Of a stretch of DNA of 64,000 bases, positions 178-6,597 are shown piece after piece. Under the pieces are notes generated by a model, which ran no database searches, was not told the DNA's origin, and saw only the letters and a list, made by a program, of their open reading frames with translations. A program made the translations under genes and the position numbers. Source of the stretch: Burkholderiales bacterium (lineage in GTDB: Bacteria; Pseudomonadota; Gammaproteobacteria; Burkholderiales; WYBJ01); NCBI GenBank assembly GCA_022841915.1, contig JALHQN010000018.1, positions 1 to 64,000 on the forward strand, written 5' to 3'. Positions within the stretch are counted from its first letter, which is position 1, and each line of letters starts with the position of its first letter.

Positions 178-3100
178 CTAGCGCAAGACCGGGTTAAGCA
201 CATCCCCGGTGACCGCGACGCTGCTTTGAGCGAGCACAGTGCCACGCGGCCCCACCCGCACGTTCATGCGTCCGGCAAGTTCGCCTTTCGGCAGGACTTC
301 GAAGGCGCCGGCGGCACTCATCGAGTCGGACGCGATGCGCATCTGCTGGAATGACGCGCGATTCCCAGCCACCCTCACGAGACCGCTCATGGTGTTGTAG
401 CGCGACCGTCCACCGCGTACGCCATCTGTCGTCGGCGCTTGGGCGGCTCGGGTGAAATCCACATTGTTGATGGTCCCACGCGTGCTGCTGAACGAAAACT
501 CGGCTCGATCCTGATCGAACAATTTGGGCAGGCTGGCGCCGCGAAGGCTGAAGGCGCCTTTTAGATCGGCCGAACCGGTAACCGATACGCCTTTGGCGAA
601 CAGCGCCAGGAGCGGTTCGATATTGAGACTGTCGATGCTGAACCGGCCTTCAACCGCAATGCCGTTGCTGTAGTCGGCCTGCCCGTTCGCCTTGAACTTG
701 CCGCCGAACATGCTGCCCTCGGCGTTGATGTCCTTGAGTTGGGTGCGGGTCACGGTGGCGGTCAACTCTAGACTGTCGAACACATAAGCCGGTCCCAGGG
801 GGGCGATAAACCGGTTTCCACGCGCCGTCAGCGCAACGCCGCCTTCCTTGGGCACGAGGTCGGCTGCAAGCGAGCCGTCGCTCAATTTCAGCGATGCCTT
901 TGCGACACTGCCATCTGCGGCGAACTGTGCGTCGACGCTGAGGGAGACCGGTTCCATGCCCTGCAAGGCGACACGCGCGCCAAGCACGGACAACTTTTCC
1001 ACCGTCGCGCGCTGCTCACCGACGACCGGCTTGGCCCAGGCCAGCACGCGGGCAAGCGCATCCTGATCCATGTTCAAGCCGCTCAGTTCGATCCGGTCGA
1101 TGCTCTTGCGCTCAGCGAACAGGTCGCCGAGGCCCATGCTTATTCTGGCGCCGAGGGCCTTGACGTCCTGTTGACGTCCGATGGTGATGTTCTCGAGCGT
1201 GAGCGCAGGACTCGGGAACAAAGAGTAGCGCATCGTGCCGATGGTCACAGGCTCGCCGAGGCGCTCGGCGGCGATTTTCTCGGCATTCGCTATCCAGGGG
1301 GTCAGCGGCATCACTTCCATCAGACCGGCGCCGGCGCCGAGGAGCACGAGCGTGCCCACGGCCAAGGGCAGCAGGACTTTGCGCTGCTTTCGGGGCATCA
1401 TCCGGGCTCGGGCGGCTTCTTCCTCGGCCAGCCGAGCACGTTGTTCGGCTGCGAGCGTCGCCCTTTCCTGGGCTTCGCGGCGTGCCTTGACGTCGGCGTC
1501 GAGTTCGGCTTGCTGGCGCGCCTTGAGTTCCCCTTCGACGCGCTCCTTGATCTGGGTTTCTGACTTTTCCTCGAATTCGCGCTGCTGCATGACTCGCGCG
1601 ACCGCCTCCATCTTGGCTCGATCCTCTGCCGCAGCGCGTGCTCGACGCTCGTCCTCCATGCGGGCGATCAGCTTCGAGCGCACGGTCGCTTCGCGAGCCA
1701 TGCGTGCTTCCATCTGCTCTCTTGCCTGTTTTTCGGCCTCGAGCCGCGCCTCTGCTTCCTCGCGGATCTGACGAGCTTGCTCGGCCCTGCGCTCGGCTTC
1801 TTCCAGGGCTTTGCGCGTGTTGTCGGTCTGATCGGATGCGAAATCGCGCGAGCGGCGCTCGGCCTCTTCGCGCGCCTTGCGCTCGACTTCGATCTGAGCT
1901 TCCATTTCGGCGCGCGCGCGCGCTTCGGCCTCTTCGCGCGCCGAGCGCTCGGCGGCGGCCGTGGCTTCCGCTTCGGCTCGAGCCTTGCGCTCTGCCTCGA
2001 TCTGCGCCTCGATCTGTCGGCGCTCCTGATCGATGCGCGCCTGCATGGCTTTGCGCTCGACATCATCGCGCGCCTTGCGCTCCGCCTCTTCGCGACCGAG
2101 GCGCTCGACTTCTTCGCGGGCACGGCGCTCGGCGTCCTCGCGCGCTTGGCGCTCCACATCGATACGAGCTTCTGCGTCGGTGCGGGCCCGGCGTTCGATC
2201 TCCGCGCGTTCCTCGGCTTGTTCGCGGGCAAGCCGAGCCGCTTCGAACTTGGCCTCGGCCTCTTCGCGGGCGACCCGCGCGGCCTGAGTCTGCGTCGAGG
2301 CCTCTTCAGCGGCAAGCCGTTGGGCTTCCTCGCGAGCGTGCCGCTCCGAGTCCGCCTTGGCCTCGGCTTCGGCCCGAGCGGCACGTTCGGTTTGCAGTCT
2401 GAGTTCGGCTTCATCGCGCGCACGGCGCTCCGCCTCCTCGCGCGCACGACGCTCCGCCGCGATCTTCGCTTCGGCCTCTTCGAGCACTTTCTGGCTGGCC
2501 GCGGCATGAGCTTCGGCTTCGCGTTCCGCACGCTTCTCAGCTTCTTCGCGGGCGCGGATTGCCGCATCGAGCTGTGCCAGTGCTTCCGCCGATCGCTCCT
2601 CGGCTGCATGTGCTCGCGCTTCGGCCTCGGCCTTGATCTGTGCTTCCACATCCTCGCGGGCGAGATTCTGAGCTGCTGCTCTCGCGTTGGCCTCCTTACG
2701 AGCCTCGGCTTGCGCAGCGGCCCGGGCATGCACCTCTGCCTCCAACTGGGCCAGCGCCTGTCGCGCGGTCTCTTCGGCGGCGCGGACTTTCGCTTCTGCC
2801 TCCTCGCGCGCTAGGCGAAAGCTCTCTTCGCGAGCTTTCGCCTCTTGCTCGACGCGCGCTCTGGTGAGTGCCTCTTCGGTCGCGCGTCGCTCGGCTTCTT
2901 CACGCGCCCGAACCTCGGCTTCTTCGCGTGCCCGAGCCTGTGCGACTTCCCGCATGCGCGCCTCGGCTTCTTCGCGCGCGCGCTGCTCGGCCTCTTCGCG
3001 AGCCTTGCGTTCGGTTTCCTCGCGTGCTCTGGACTCGGCTTCCGCACGCACGCGTGCCTCCGCTTCGTGCTGAGCACGCCGCTCGGCCTCTTCGCGCGCC

Positions 3101-5205
3101 TTGCGTTCGGCGTCCTCGCGTGCCTTGGCTTCTGCCTCCGCCTGCGCCCTGGACCGGGCTTCTTCCTGGGCTCGAAGCTCGGCCTCCTCGCGGGCACGCA
3201 ATGCCGCTTCTTCGCGTGCTTGCGCTTCGGCTTCAGCGCGTAGCCGCGCGGCGAGTTCCTGCTCGGCGCGCCGCTCGGCCTCTTCGCGCGCCTTGCGTTC
3301 GGCGTCCTCGCGCGCCTTGGCTTCTGCCTCCGCCTGCGCCCTGGACCGGGCTTCTTCCTGGGCTCGAAGCTCGGCCTCCTCGCGGGCGCGCATTGCCGCT
3401 TCTTCGCGTGCTTGCGCTTCGGCTTCAGCGCGTAGCCGCGCGGCGAGTTCCTGCTCGGCGCGCCGCTCGGCTTCTTCGCGCGCCTTGCGTTCGGCGTCCT
3501 CGCGCGCCTTGGCTTCTGCCTCCGCCTGGGCTCTGGATCGCGCCTCTTCCTGGGCTCGAAGCTCGGCTTCCTCACGGGCACGCAATGCCGCTTCTTCGCG
3601 CGCTTGGGCTTGAGCCTCGACGCGAAGTCGAGCCTCGGTTTCTTGCGCGGCGCGTCGTTCGGCTTCCTCGCGGCCACGACGTTCGGCCTCCTCGCGGGCC
3701 TTGGCCTCGGCCTCTGCGCGTGCGCGTGCTTGCGCCTCTTCTCGAGCCCTTGCTTCCGCTTCCTCGCGCGCACGTGCTTCGGCTTCCGCGCGTAGGCGCG
3801 CCTCGGACGCCTGTTCAGCACGACGTTCGGCTTCTTCGCGGCCCCTGCGTTCGGTTTCTTCGCGAGCGCGTGCCTCGAACTCGGCACGCATCCGCGCCTC
3901 GGTCTCCTGGGCGGCGCGCCGTTCCGCTTCCTCCCGGGCACGGCGCTCGGCCTCCTCGCGTGCACGGGCATCGGCTTCCGCCTGTGCCCTGGCTTCGGCT
4001 TCTTCGCGGGCGCGGCGCTCGGCTTCTTCACGCGCCTTGCGTTCGATTTCCGCCTGCGCGCGTGCCTCGGCTTCGACTCGTGCGCGCGCCTCGGCTTCGG
4101 CGCTGGCGCGCTGCTCCGCCTCTTCGCGGGCGCGCCGCTGTGCCTCTTCGCGTACCTTGGCTTCGGCCTCGGCTCTTTGGCGAGCTTCGATCTCTGCTTG
4201 GACGCGTGCTTCGGCTTGTTCTTGGGCGCGGAGGTTCTCTTCTTCGCGCGCCTTGGCTTCTGCTTCGATGCGGGCCCGAGCATCGGCTTCCGCCTTTGCG
4301 CGTGTCTGGGCTTCCGCGAGCATGCGGGCCATTGCCTGCAGTTTGGCCTCCAGCTCCGCGCGTGCGCGAGCTTCGGTCTCTGCGCGAGCAAGCGCCTCGC
4401 GTTCGGCTTGTGCGCTCGTTCGCGCACGCTCTTGGGCCTCGGCTTCCGCCTTCGCTCTCGCGTCGGCCTCGGTGCGAGCCAGGGCTTCCGCTTCGGCTCG
4501 AGCCTTGGCTTCAGCCTCGTAGCGCTGTTTCATCTGCAACGCCGCACGCATGCGAGCCTCGGCTTCTGCGCGTCCTTGGGCTTCCGTGGCCGCGCGTACC
4601 TCGGCTTCGGCTCGTTCTCTGGCTGCCGAGGCTGCGCGAACCTGGGCTTCTGCCTCGGCCCGCGCTCGGGCTTCGGTCTGTGCCTGCGCTTGCGCGACCA
4701 GCTTGGCTTTGGCCTCCATCGCTGCAACGGCTTCCGACTCATGGCGCATGCGTCCCTGAGCTTCAGCGCGAGCTTTCGCTTCGGCCTCGGCGCGGGCACG
4801 AGCCTCGGCGACCTGGTTGAGCTTGTTCAAGGATTCCGGCGAGGTGAAATCGAGATCCGCGAGGTCGGAGCGCCGCGCGCCCGAGGCGTCCGTCATGCGA
4901 ACCGTGGCGGGCCTGAGGCTTTGGGTGGCATTCGGATCGAATGGGGCGGCGATGCGGGCGCCGGAGCCAGCCGGCATCGCACCCGTCGAAAAGACCTTGA
5001 TGTAACCATCGCTGGCTAGTCGAGCGAGGGCGTTGGTGAGGTCGTCGTATTCCAGCCCCGAAGCCTTTGCCAGCATCTCGGCAACGGTCGACTTGCCATC
5101 GACCAAGGCGAACACCCGCTCGAGCTCTCTGGATAGCTTGATCGTGCGATTCCTTACTTCGAGCACGCCTTTGGCGGTTTTGGTATAGATGGTCTGCTCG
5201 CTCAT
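178..5205 (-). CDS. Giant coiled-coil/single-helix membrane protein with AsmA-like C-terminal domain
   Basis: This 1675-residue protein has four parts. Residues 1 to about 75 resemble a small winged-helix-like domain (TIYTKTAKGVLEVRNRT..., then a second helix pair). Residues about 128-1268 are almost entirely Ala, Glu, Arg and Lys in short EEAERRAR-type repeats, a pattern typical of long coiled coils or salt-bridged single alpha helices such as TolA domain II. One hydrophobic segment lies at about 1276-1297 (VLLPLAVGTLVLLGAGAGL). About 380 residues follow that look like the AsmA family (LGEPVTIG..., repeated beta-strand-rich segments, ending GDVLNPVLR). The expected topology is a cytoplasmic N-terminus and helix with a periplasmic AsmA domain. 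AsmA proteins act in envelope lipid and outer-membrane homeostasis; the helix's role is unknown. The start is ATG at 5205. A TACAAT at 5280-5285 (read on this strand) is a possible -10. Confidence 0.85.
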   Translation of the reverse strand: MSEQTIYTKTAKGVLEVRNRTIKLSRELERVFALVDGKSTVAEMLAKASGLEYDDLTNALARLASDGYIKVFSTGAMPAGSGARIAAPFDPNATQSLRPATVRMTDASGARRSDLADLDFTSPESLNKLNQVAEARARAEAEAKARAEAQGRMRHESEAVAAMEAKAKLVAQAQAQTEARARAEAEAQVRAASAARERAEAEVRAATEAQGRAEAEARMRAALQMKQRYEAEAKARAEAEALARTEADARAKAEAEAQERARTSAQAEREALARAETEARARAELEAKLQAMARMLAEAQTRAKAEADARARIEAEAKAREEENLRAQEQAEARVQAEIEARQRAEAEAKVREEAQRRAREEAEQRASAEAEARARVEAEARAQAEIERKAREEAERRAREEAEARAQAEADARAREEAERRAREEAERRAAQETEARMRAEFEARAREETERRGREEAERRAEQASEARLRAEAEARAREEAEARAREEAQARARAEAEAKAREEAERRGREEAERRAAQETEARLRVEAQAQAREEAALRAREEAELRAQEEARSRAQAEAEAKAREDAERKAREEAERRAEQELAARLRAEAEAQAREEAAMRAREEAELRAQEEARSRAQAEAEAKAREDAERKAREEAERRAEQELAARLRAEAEAQAREEAALRAREEAELRAQEEARSRAQAEAEAKAREDAERKAREEAERRAQHEAEARVRAEAESRAREETERKAREEAEQRAREEAEARMREVAQARAREEAEVRAREEAERRATEEALTRARVEQEAKAREESFRLAREEAEAKVRAAEETARQALAQLEAEVHARAAAQAEARKEANARAAAQNLAREDVEAQIKAEAEARAHAAEERSAEALAQLDAAIRAREEAEKRAEREAEAHAAASQKVLEEAEAKIAAERRAREEAERRARDEAELRLQTERAARAEAEAKADSERHAREEAQRLAAEEASTQTQAARVAREEAEAKFEAARLAREQAEERAEIERRARTDAEARIDVERQAREDAERRAREEVERLGREEAERKARDDVERKAMQARIDQERRQIEAQIEAERKARAEAEATAAAERSAREEAEARARAEMEAQIEVERKAREEAERRSRDFASDQTDNTRKALEEAERRAEQARQIREEAEARLEAEKQAREQMEARMAREATVRSKLIARMEDERRARAAAEDRAKMEAVARVMQQREFEEKSETQIKERVEGELKARQQAELDADVKARREAQERATLAAEQRARLAEEEAARARMMPRKQRKVLLPLAVGTLVLLGAGAGLMEVMPLTPWIANAEKIAAERLGEPVTIGTMRYSLFPSPALTLENITIGRQQDVKALGARISMGLGDLFAERKSIDRIELSGLNMDQDALARVLAWAKPVVGEQRATVEKLSVLGARVALQGMEPVSLSVDAQFAADGSVAKASLKLSDGSLAADLVPKEGGVALTARGNRFIAPLGPAYVFDSLELTATVTRTQLKDINAEGSMFGGKFKANGQADYSNGIAVEGRFSIDSLNIEPLLALFAKGVSVTGSADLKGAFSLRGASLPKLFDQDRAEFSFSSTRGTINNVDFTRAAQAPTTDGVRGGRSRYNTMSGLVRVAGNRASFQQMRIASDSMSAAGAFEVLPKGELAGRMNVRVGPRGTVLAQSSVAVTGDVLNPVLR
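3070..3625. repeat. 192-bp in-frame tandem repeat, nearly three copies, inside the giant gene
   Basis: The same sequence recurs at exactly 192-base steps: the string GGCTTCTGCCTCCGCCTG begins at 3127, 3319 and 3511. Flanking sequence is also shared, so two full units and most of a third can be followed from about 3070 to 3625. 192 bases is 64 codons, so the reading frame is kept and each unit adds a 64-residue helix block (AQEEARSRAQAEAEAKARED and onwards). Differences between copies are few, which suggests recent duplication or ongoing conversion. The outer limits are approximate. Confidence 0.85.
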
Positions 5206-5643
5206 GCGCAGTCAGCCTTCGGCAAGTTTTCGAGGGGCGGGCGCCCGTGTGTTTCGCGTTCCGGGCGTGGATTATTGCTATTGTAAAGCCCGCATCCGTA
5301 TAGTGTAATCCGCCCGACAATTCGAGCCGCAGCCCACCGGAACCGTTCGACATACAGCGCCACAATGACCGTTATAGCGTATGCCATGCTCGTGGGCGGT
5401 CGCTTTCCACAGGGTGCGGCGGGAAAACATCCGACCGCAAGCGATGAGCAAAGCTGCCTCGGATCGTGCCGGAGTGCCACGTTATATCGGCAGAAGCGGT
5501 GTACTCTTTGGTCGATATGATCGAGAAGAGGGCGCGGATGCCGATTGCAACGCGGACTGGCTTCCTTCGCGGGGCTCTGCGGGCTTCGATATCGGAGCAG
5601 AGGGTCGCGGTGCGGAATGCACGGGGAAAAAGGGCGAATCGGA
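5206..5643. other. Divergent intergenic region
   Basis: This 438-base gap separates the giant minus-strand gene from the HD-domain gene on the plus strand. It should hold both promoters. A TACAAT element read on the minus strand (5280-5285) could be a -10 for the giant gene, but no convincing -35 accompanies it. Open frames here lack coding character and recognisable similarity. The plus-strand frame of the HD gene stays open back to 5545, but the extra N-terminal residues look non-native. Confidence 0.5.
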
Positions 5644-6597
5644 ATGTCCGGACGGCGTAACGACTACGACGTCACGAATCGGGTCCGGACAACCGATCCT
5701 GGCGAAGTGGAAGCCGAGATCGGACGCATTTTTCATACGCTCTACCCGAGTGCGCCTGGACGGGCATTGACGCGGGCAATCGACGATGCGACTCGACTAT
5801 TCCGGGGCGAGTTTCCGGGATATGCGGCGTGCGACACGGCTTATCACGATCTGCAGCATACGCTGGATGTCTCGTTGGCGATGGCCAGGATCATGGCTGG
5901 TTACGTGCGTCAGGAAAGAGACGAACTGATCGATGCCGACATGTTCTGCTTCGGCCTCATGGCGGCGTTGTTTCACGACGCCGGCTATATTCGGCGTATC
6001 GGCGACCAGCGGCATCTCAACGGTGCTGAATACACGAAGACCCATGTGTCCCGCGGAGGCCAGTTTCTGCGGCATTACCTGCGCGAGATCGGTTTGGGCA
6101 AATTCTCAGATGCCGCTGCGCCAACCTTGCACTTCACGGGCTACGAACGGCCCGCCCAGCGCATACGCGTGCCCGATCCGGTATTTCGGCTGATCGGGAA
6201 CATGCTCGGGTCGGCGGACATCATCGCTCAGATGGCCGATCGCTGCTACCTTGAGAAATGCTACGAACGTCTATATCCGGAGTTCGTTCTCGGCGGCGTC
6301 GACCGCAGGATCGAGGGTGATGGCAGCGAGCGGTTGATCTTCGCCTCTGCAGAGGATCTCGTCTTGCGTACGCCGCAGTTCTATCGGTCGGCGATGAAGC
6401 GCTTGCACGAACAACTCGATGCGGTCATGCGGTTCGCCGCTGAGCGGGCGCAGCAACCCAATTTGTACGTCGAGGAGACCGAAAAGAACATTCGCTATGC
6501 CCAGCGACTCGCCGAGCACGGGGACCTGAGCGCACTGCGGCGTCAGCCGCCGCTGGCGCCGCAAACACCGCTCGGGCGCTCGCGGCGCGGACGCTGA
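5644..6597 (+). CDS. HD-domain metal-dependent phosphohydrolase-like protein
   Basis: The 317-residue protein carries an HD-superfamily signature: YHDLQH at about residues 67-72 and HDAGY with the HD pair at 111-112, followed by a helical region with further conserved His and Asp (SADIIAQMADR). HD proteins bind one or two metal ions and hydrolyse phosphoesters, often nucleotides or cyclic nucleotides; the substrate here is unknown. No second domain or membrane segment is seen. The frame is open from 5545, but ATG 5644 is chosen because the GGGGAAAAAGGG tract precedes it and similarity-like sequence begins soon after. It diverges from the giant gene; no operon partner follows. Confidence 0.75.
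   Translation: MSGRRNDYDVTNRVRTTDPGEVEAEIGRIFHTLYPSAPGRALTRAIDDATRLFRGEFPGYAACDTAYHDLQHTLDVSLAMARIMAGYVRQERDELIDADMFCFGLMAALFHDAGYIRRIGDQRHLNGAEYTKTHVSRGGQFLRHYLREIGLGKFSDAAAPTLHFTGYERPAQRIRVPDPVFRLIGNMLGSADIIAQMADRCYLEKCYERLYPEFVLGGVDRRIEGDGSERLIFASAEDLVLRTPQFYRSAMKRLHEQLDAVMRFAAERAQQPNLYVEETEKNIRYAQRLAEHGDLSALRRQPPLAPQTPLGRSRRGR

Follow-up and report, generated by a model that had tools for sequence, protein, structure and literature searches.

How might a short membrane protein of the AsmA family make use of a charged helix of more than a thousand residues, and of the small domain carried at its far end? The question is raised by a gene at the very edge of the window, the stretch of 64,000 nucleotides of Burkholderiales DNA that was analysed, whose base 1 is also base 1 of the contig. 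In one uninterrupted reading frame, the gene (5205..178, minus strand) encodes 1675 residues from an ATG start, and just 177 bp lie downstream of it. Its product comprises an N-terminal winged-helix domain (the tip domain, or NTD), a flexible linker, a charged arm, one transmembrane (TM) helix and an AsmA-like periplasmic domain. The first-pass annotation had read this order between positions 178 and 5205; the coordinates are correct, and the order is borne out by AF2, hydropathy and Pfam and is conserved in other genomes. Sequence analysis and modelling together establish the anatomy of the protein, that is, its domain order, helix type, variable length and mobile tip.

The membrane anchor (residues 1277-1298; 1312..1377, minus strand) is a hydropathy peak, modelled by AF2 as a helix, and the sole hydrophobic segment of the protein. 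It is preceded by RKQRK (N-in). The Arg/Lys-rich side N-terminal to the TM helix and the AsmA domain on the periplasmic side support a predicted cytoplasmic location for the arm. The AsmA-like (chorein / β-groove) domain, recognised by Pfam, AF2 and Foldseek, follows directly (residues 1299-1675 and stop codon; 178..1311, minus strand). Scanned alone, the C-terminal 408 aa match Pfam AsmA (PF05170) with 35.8 bits against a cut-off of 29.8, which settles the earlier proviso that AsmA similarity might be missing; when the whole protein is scanned, the match scores 25.9 bits, under the cut-off, and would go unnoticed. Among 20 homologues, Pfam finds AsmA in 18 (E ≤ 0.01), YhdP in nine and DUF748 in five, and the family profile matches TamB among PDB sequences (E 7e-5). 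For the last part of the protein, AF2 (pLDDT 83.6) predicts the TM helix (11-30 of the model), a second helix and then mostly long strands. The top Foldseek match of this model is a chorein-bearing Vps13 N-terminal fragment (E 2.2e-4, with a low TM-score), and in VIA-align LPD-3, Vps13 and Atg2 appear among β-barrel proteins of similar Z (6.8-9.3). Used alone, the fold would leave the assignment ambiguous. The layout, an N-terminal TM helix running directly into a chorein-like periplasmic β domain, is that of the AsmA family, and chorein-N domains have been placed in TamB and AsmA (PMC6791001). Judged by profile and predicted fold together, the protein is an AsmA-family member. At ~380 aa, its periplasmic domain falls well short of TamB or YhdP in length and seems insufficient to bridge the periplasm. 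AsmA-type β-grooves have been linked to the movement of phospholipid, and in E. coli three members of the family are concentrated at the cell poles (PMC12977461); by analogy with the known family, the domain described here may handle lipids.

At the opposite end, the first 75 residues (MSEQTIYTKTAKG...LVDGKST...GYIKVF; 4981..5205, minus strand) are modelled by AF2 as a winged helix (pLDDT 87.5). The fold matches in the PDB are many, unrelated and generic (Z up to 9.8), and sequence similarity to the HTH_47/MarR/TrmB and PqqD-like profiles is weak. An RRE/PqqD-like identity was considered and is at most a candidate: PqqD and the RRE-bearing proteins MccB, TruD and TbiB1 match weakly in sequence and fold, and no better than unrelated winged helices do. 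A flexible linker, delimited from sequence (residues 76-127; 4825..4980, minus strand), joins the tip to the arm; its C-terminal end is the conserved motif DLDFTSPESLNKLNQ, and a DLDFT-like motif is found again in homologues.

The tip had been called DNA-binding-like, and as regards fold this was right: it has the architecture of the MarR/TrmB type of DNA-binding winged helix. The basic recognition helix of that type, however, is not found; the presumed recognition helix is acidic, with a mean net charge of -1.8 over 32 members and of -3 in the window protein, and this argues against DNA binding by the tip. A nucleoid tether, in which the winged helix binds DNA and so links envelope and chromosome, draws on the fold and the weak profile similarity but is unlikely, because the recognition helix is acidic and because the partner domains of the tip in other proteins are signalling domains. 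The tip is attached to receiver domains in four loci, L042 (seen by Pfam), L083, L087 and L096 (by eye), with the NTD-receiver genes read at L042:4617-5399 (-) and L083:3859-4653 (-). It is combined with a coiled region and a C-terminal cNMP-binding domain in L097:2977-4158 (-), and in L054:8343-10538 (+) most of the arm between tip and TM-AsmA has given way to a class III adenylate/guanylate cyclase domain. Armless NTD-TM-AsmA proteins also occur (L089, L090, L091, L094, L095). The tip domain is a mobile module of signalling type. That it turns up in proteins with receiver, cNMP-binding or cyclase domains hints at a common role as adaptor; its partner domains favour protein docking or adaptor function. 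Relatives of L054 from the same family show similar frame lengths (720-747 codons). Small tip-domain proteins of ~160-250 aa with a short C-terminal part (L080, L081, L084-L086, L088, L092, L093, L098, L099) are found order-wide, and a Pfam scan of L080 gave no match.

The arm (residues 128-1262, ~1135 in all; 1420..4824, minus strand) consists of 30% A, 24.5% E, 19% R, 6% Q and 3.6% K. Together the first three of these and K reach 77%, so that its original description as an Ala-Glu-Arg-Lys helix was accurate, and LIVMFYW account for just 9%. It contains 384 opposite-charge and 22 like-charge pairs at i,i+4, compared with 137 ± 10 and 139 in composition-preserving shuffles; the opposite-charge excess is absent at i,i+3 and i,i+7. 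Together with the Arg/Lys-rich side of the TM helix, this pairing agrees with the continuous cytoplasmic helix first proposed. Fourier analysis gives a period of 4.0 residues for Ala and 8.0 for charge; neither 3.5 nor 3.67 stands out as a dominant peak. An 8-state cyclic model (octad HMM) trained on the arm, approximately E-x-R-A-R-E-E-A, gains 489 in lnL over composition, and its register holds unbroken between about residues 290 and 809. With i,i+4 opposite-charge pairs and no heptad hydrophobic seam, the arm is classed from these statistics as an ER/K-type single α-helix (SAH) and not as a left-handed heptad coiled coil; a monomeric state is predicted. The choice between coiled coil and single helix, left to further analysis at the outset, falls to the latter. 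A Cornifin match of Pfam on the arm is a low-complexity artefact.

The membrane-proximal 462 residues retain the i,i+4 bias and add a weak 3.6-residue hydrophobic period, so this part of the arm may be partly amphipathic and not purely solvent-exposed. Such a period and the Ala-rich helix are what could be expected if the arms oligomerised as coiled coils and bundled into a cytoplasmic fibre. A scaffold of this kind is nevertheless improbable, given that the arm as a whole has no 3.5 or 3.67 periodicity, has only 9% large hydrophobics and places its charges as suits intra-helical i,i+4 pairing. Fully helical, the single arm would reach a contour of ~170 nm. The persistence length of an ER/K helix is roughly 15 nm. 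A typical end-to-end distance would then be nearer 70 nm, and the arm would behave as a leash rather than a rod.

The architecture is not a one-off fusion but recurs widely across the order. Of 60 sampled relatives, 30 carry homologues of the C-terminal part; full-length fusions were read in many families, and 45 long members with the same domain order are placed on the tree. A DNA pattern scan of named genomes adds further fusions among the matches listed, for example in Methylotenera and Sideroxyarcus MAGs. The tip-domain profile was found in 141 of 300 genomes of the order, and among the matches listed 71 tip-domain places lie in frames of at least 700 codons, single-contig genomes included, the AsmA part not being confirmed individually. 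Apart from the window, all tip-domain hits in the class sample lie in frames of at most 337 codons, which points to an origin of the long form within this betaproteobacterial order. Of 20 arms tested individually, 19 score strongly on the SAH statistic (z 5-24), the exception being the cyclase form L054 (z 3).

Arm length is far less constant than arm type. In 43 long homologues, between 277 and 1205 residues (median 618) separate the tip domain from the AsmA match, the window protein being the maximum. Well-supported sister pairs differ widely in the start of the AsmA match: 901 in L104 vs 449 in L151, and 737 in L124 vs 433 in L179, the latter gap being explained in part by an over-long N-terminal start of L124 and L179 being a short MAG contig that could be affected by repeat collapse. 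L135 (728) is the sister of the nearly armless L094 (159), whose genome is one contig, so that its armlessness does not stem from repeat collapse. Congener arms differ by 150-170 residues, through indels of 64, 24, 32 and 32 residues (all of them) between the window and L038, and of 64, 24, 36, 32, 10 and 4 between the window and L039. These genus-level indels all fall within residues 346-800 (2806..4170, minus strand), the octad-repeat, length-variable middle of the arm, and are mostly multiples of 8. In this middle part a 192-bp unit is repeated in tandem (3.3 copies, 91% match), and repeats of 24, 96 and 192 bp are present. A different expansion unit, of 6 and not 8 residues, is seen in L043:6571-10803 (+), whose arm has ~30 near-identical tandem LAEEAR hexapeptides.

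These tandem repeats, and the occurrence of armless NTD-AsmA forms, would be compatible with a spacer indifferent to length and sequence, expanded by repeat slippage and without a specific job. That account is quite doubtful, for the arm is widely conserved, its octad register is preserved, its indels are mostly whole octads, and its dN is low. Between congeners, the first 218 arm residues are 83-85% identical (dN 0.10-0.13), compared with 61-69% (dN 0.22-0.31) for the AsmA domain. Most arm segments have a dN below that of the AsmA domain, with synonymous sites near saturation, which indicates that the arm is not junk sequence. Because arm length varies while octad pattern and low dN are kept, selection acts on the helix pattern and not on the length.

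The first-pass annotation had proposed "a tether or ruler", and its two halves fare differently. The idea of a tether is supported. A molecular ruler, by which the arm would fix the distance from the envelope to a cytoplasmic structure, could appeal to a continuous helix with a contour of up to 170 nm and to the absence of gaps from the opening 218 and closing 462 residues of the arm in two congeners; it is very unlikely because arm length is so variable, spanning ~4-fold (~280-1200 residues) among the 43 long homologues and differing several-fold between sisters, one of them without an arm, and by 150-170 residues between congeners. Least credible of all is the split into two products foreseen at the start, by which an internal start at residues 1269-1270, marked by an ATG pair with a GAAGAAG stretch (from Glu codons) upstream and recalling the short stand-alone AsmA paralogues that occur, would yield a separate 407-aa AsmA protein: the Met is missing there in congeners L039 and L040, and all long members read keep arm and AsmA part in one frame.

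The reading preferred here, held with about even confidence, is that of a leash docked by its tip, in which the single-helix arm would let the tip bind a cytosolic partner. The short AsmA-family protein would sit in the inner membrane, where a single TM helix bears its periplasmic lipid-groove domain. The monomeric ER/K helix on its cytoplasmic N-terminus would act as a semi-flexible leash, a role that a variable arm length suits, with the winged-helix docking domain at the far end. We infer both docking and the putative partner, which is most plausibly another protein bearing a tip domain; soluble receiver and cNMP-binding proteins of this kind are encoded in related genomes. On a signal, docking would serve to capture the AsmA protein in the membrane, to position it there or to gate it, and may be controlled by two-component or cyclic-nucleotide signals. 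A second copy of the tip domain was sought in the genome of the window and none was found; with this single copy, the partner there would be something other than a detectable NTD homologue, or else the tip may self-associate.

A comparison of gene neighbourhoods showed no conserved operon. Neighbours vary by family, and near the genus of the window only an HD-domain protein and HtpX recur. The former is the divergent neighbour in the window (5545-6597, plus strand, likely true start ATG at 5641; weak Pfam HD-CE match) and is kept in L038, L041 and L042; in L040 and L042 the long gene is followed downstream by that for the HtpX protease. In G048 and G202 (one genus) the long gene has an NTD-receiver gene, the one read in L042 and L083, on its own strand and 5.6-5.9 kb downstream, and tip-domain genes occur at equal spacing from the long gene in G232 and G091 of the same genus. 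A broader proposal, clearly more tentative than the docked leash, is a lineage-wide 'fishing-rod' in Betaproteobacteria: a tip adaptor on a long helix, to which receiver and cNMP-binding adaptor proteins dock, would let signals act on envelope lipid handling.

Several known systems share parts of this design. With the AsmA family (PF05170; AsmA, YhdP, TamB and YdbH of E. coli; bridge-like lipid transfer proteins) the window protein has in common an N-in single TM helix, a periplasmic chorein-like β-groove and a profile score above the cut-off; it differs in adding a 75-aa winged helix and a cytoplasmic helix (280-1200 residues across members), and its periplasmic part has just ~380 aa. The short periplasmic part resembles that of PA2708 of P. 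aeruginosa, which is AsmA-like and judged too short to span the periplasm (PMC10900882), a likeness by description only and not by sequence; unlike in the window protein, a cytoplasmic arm is not mentioned in the passages on PA2708 (PMC10900882). ER/K single α-helices, as in myosin VI/X and INCENP, are built on i,i+4 salt bridges, have no hydrophobic seam and have been proposed to serve as leash or spring (PMC4183817, PMC4571873). The window arm is likewise a charged helix with i,i+4 pairing and no hydrophobic seam, but the longest reported myosin SAHs have ~200 residues (PMC5378345), in contrast to ~1135 in this bacterial, membrane-anchored arm. TolA domain II is also a long charged helix joined to one TM helix; it is, however, periplasmic, C-terminal to the TM helix and accompanied by a TolA/TonB C-terminal domain (PMC12204202), whereas the window arm is cytoplasmic and N-terminal, and a Pfam scan of the whole protein gave no TolA family match. 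No description of the architecture was found among open-licence papers, and an AsmA protein with winged helix and long arm seems undescribed.

AsmA-family proteins are the leading candidates for phospholipid transport to the outer membrane. A version of these proteins that comes with its own cytoplasmic arm and a tip of signalling type, and is carried by a whole order, opens cytosolic control of the family to direct testing. The arm, itself a natural ER/K helix, exceeds the myosin examples found reported several-fold in length, and the series of arm lengths, with armless sisters, provides a natural experiment on linker function. If the lineage-wide proposal is true, two-component or cyclic-nucleotide signals would act on envelope lipid handling.
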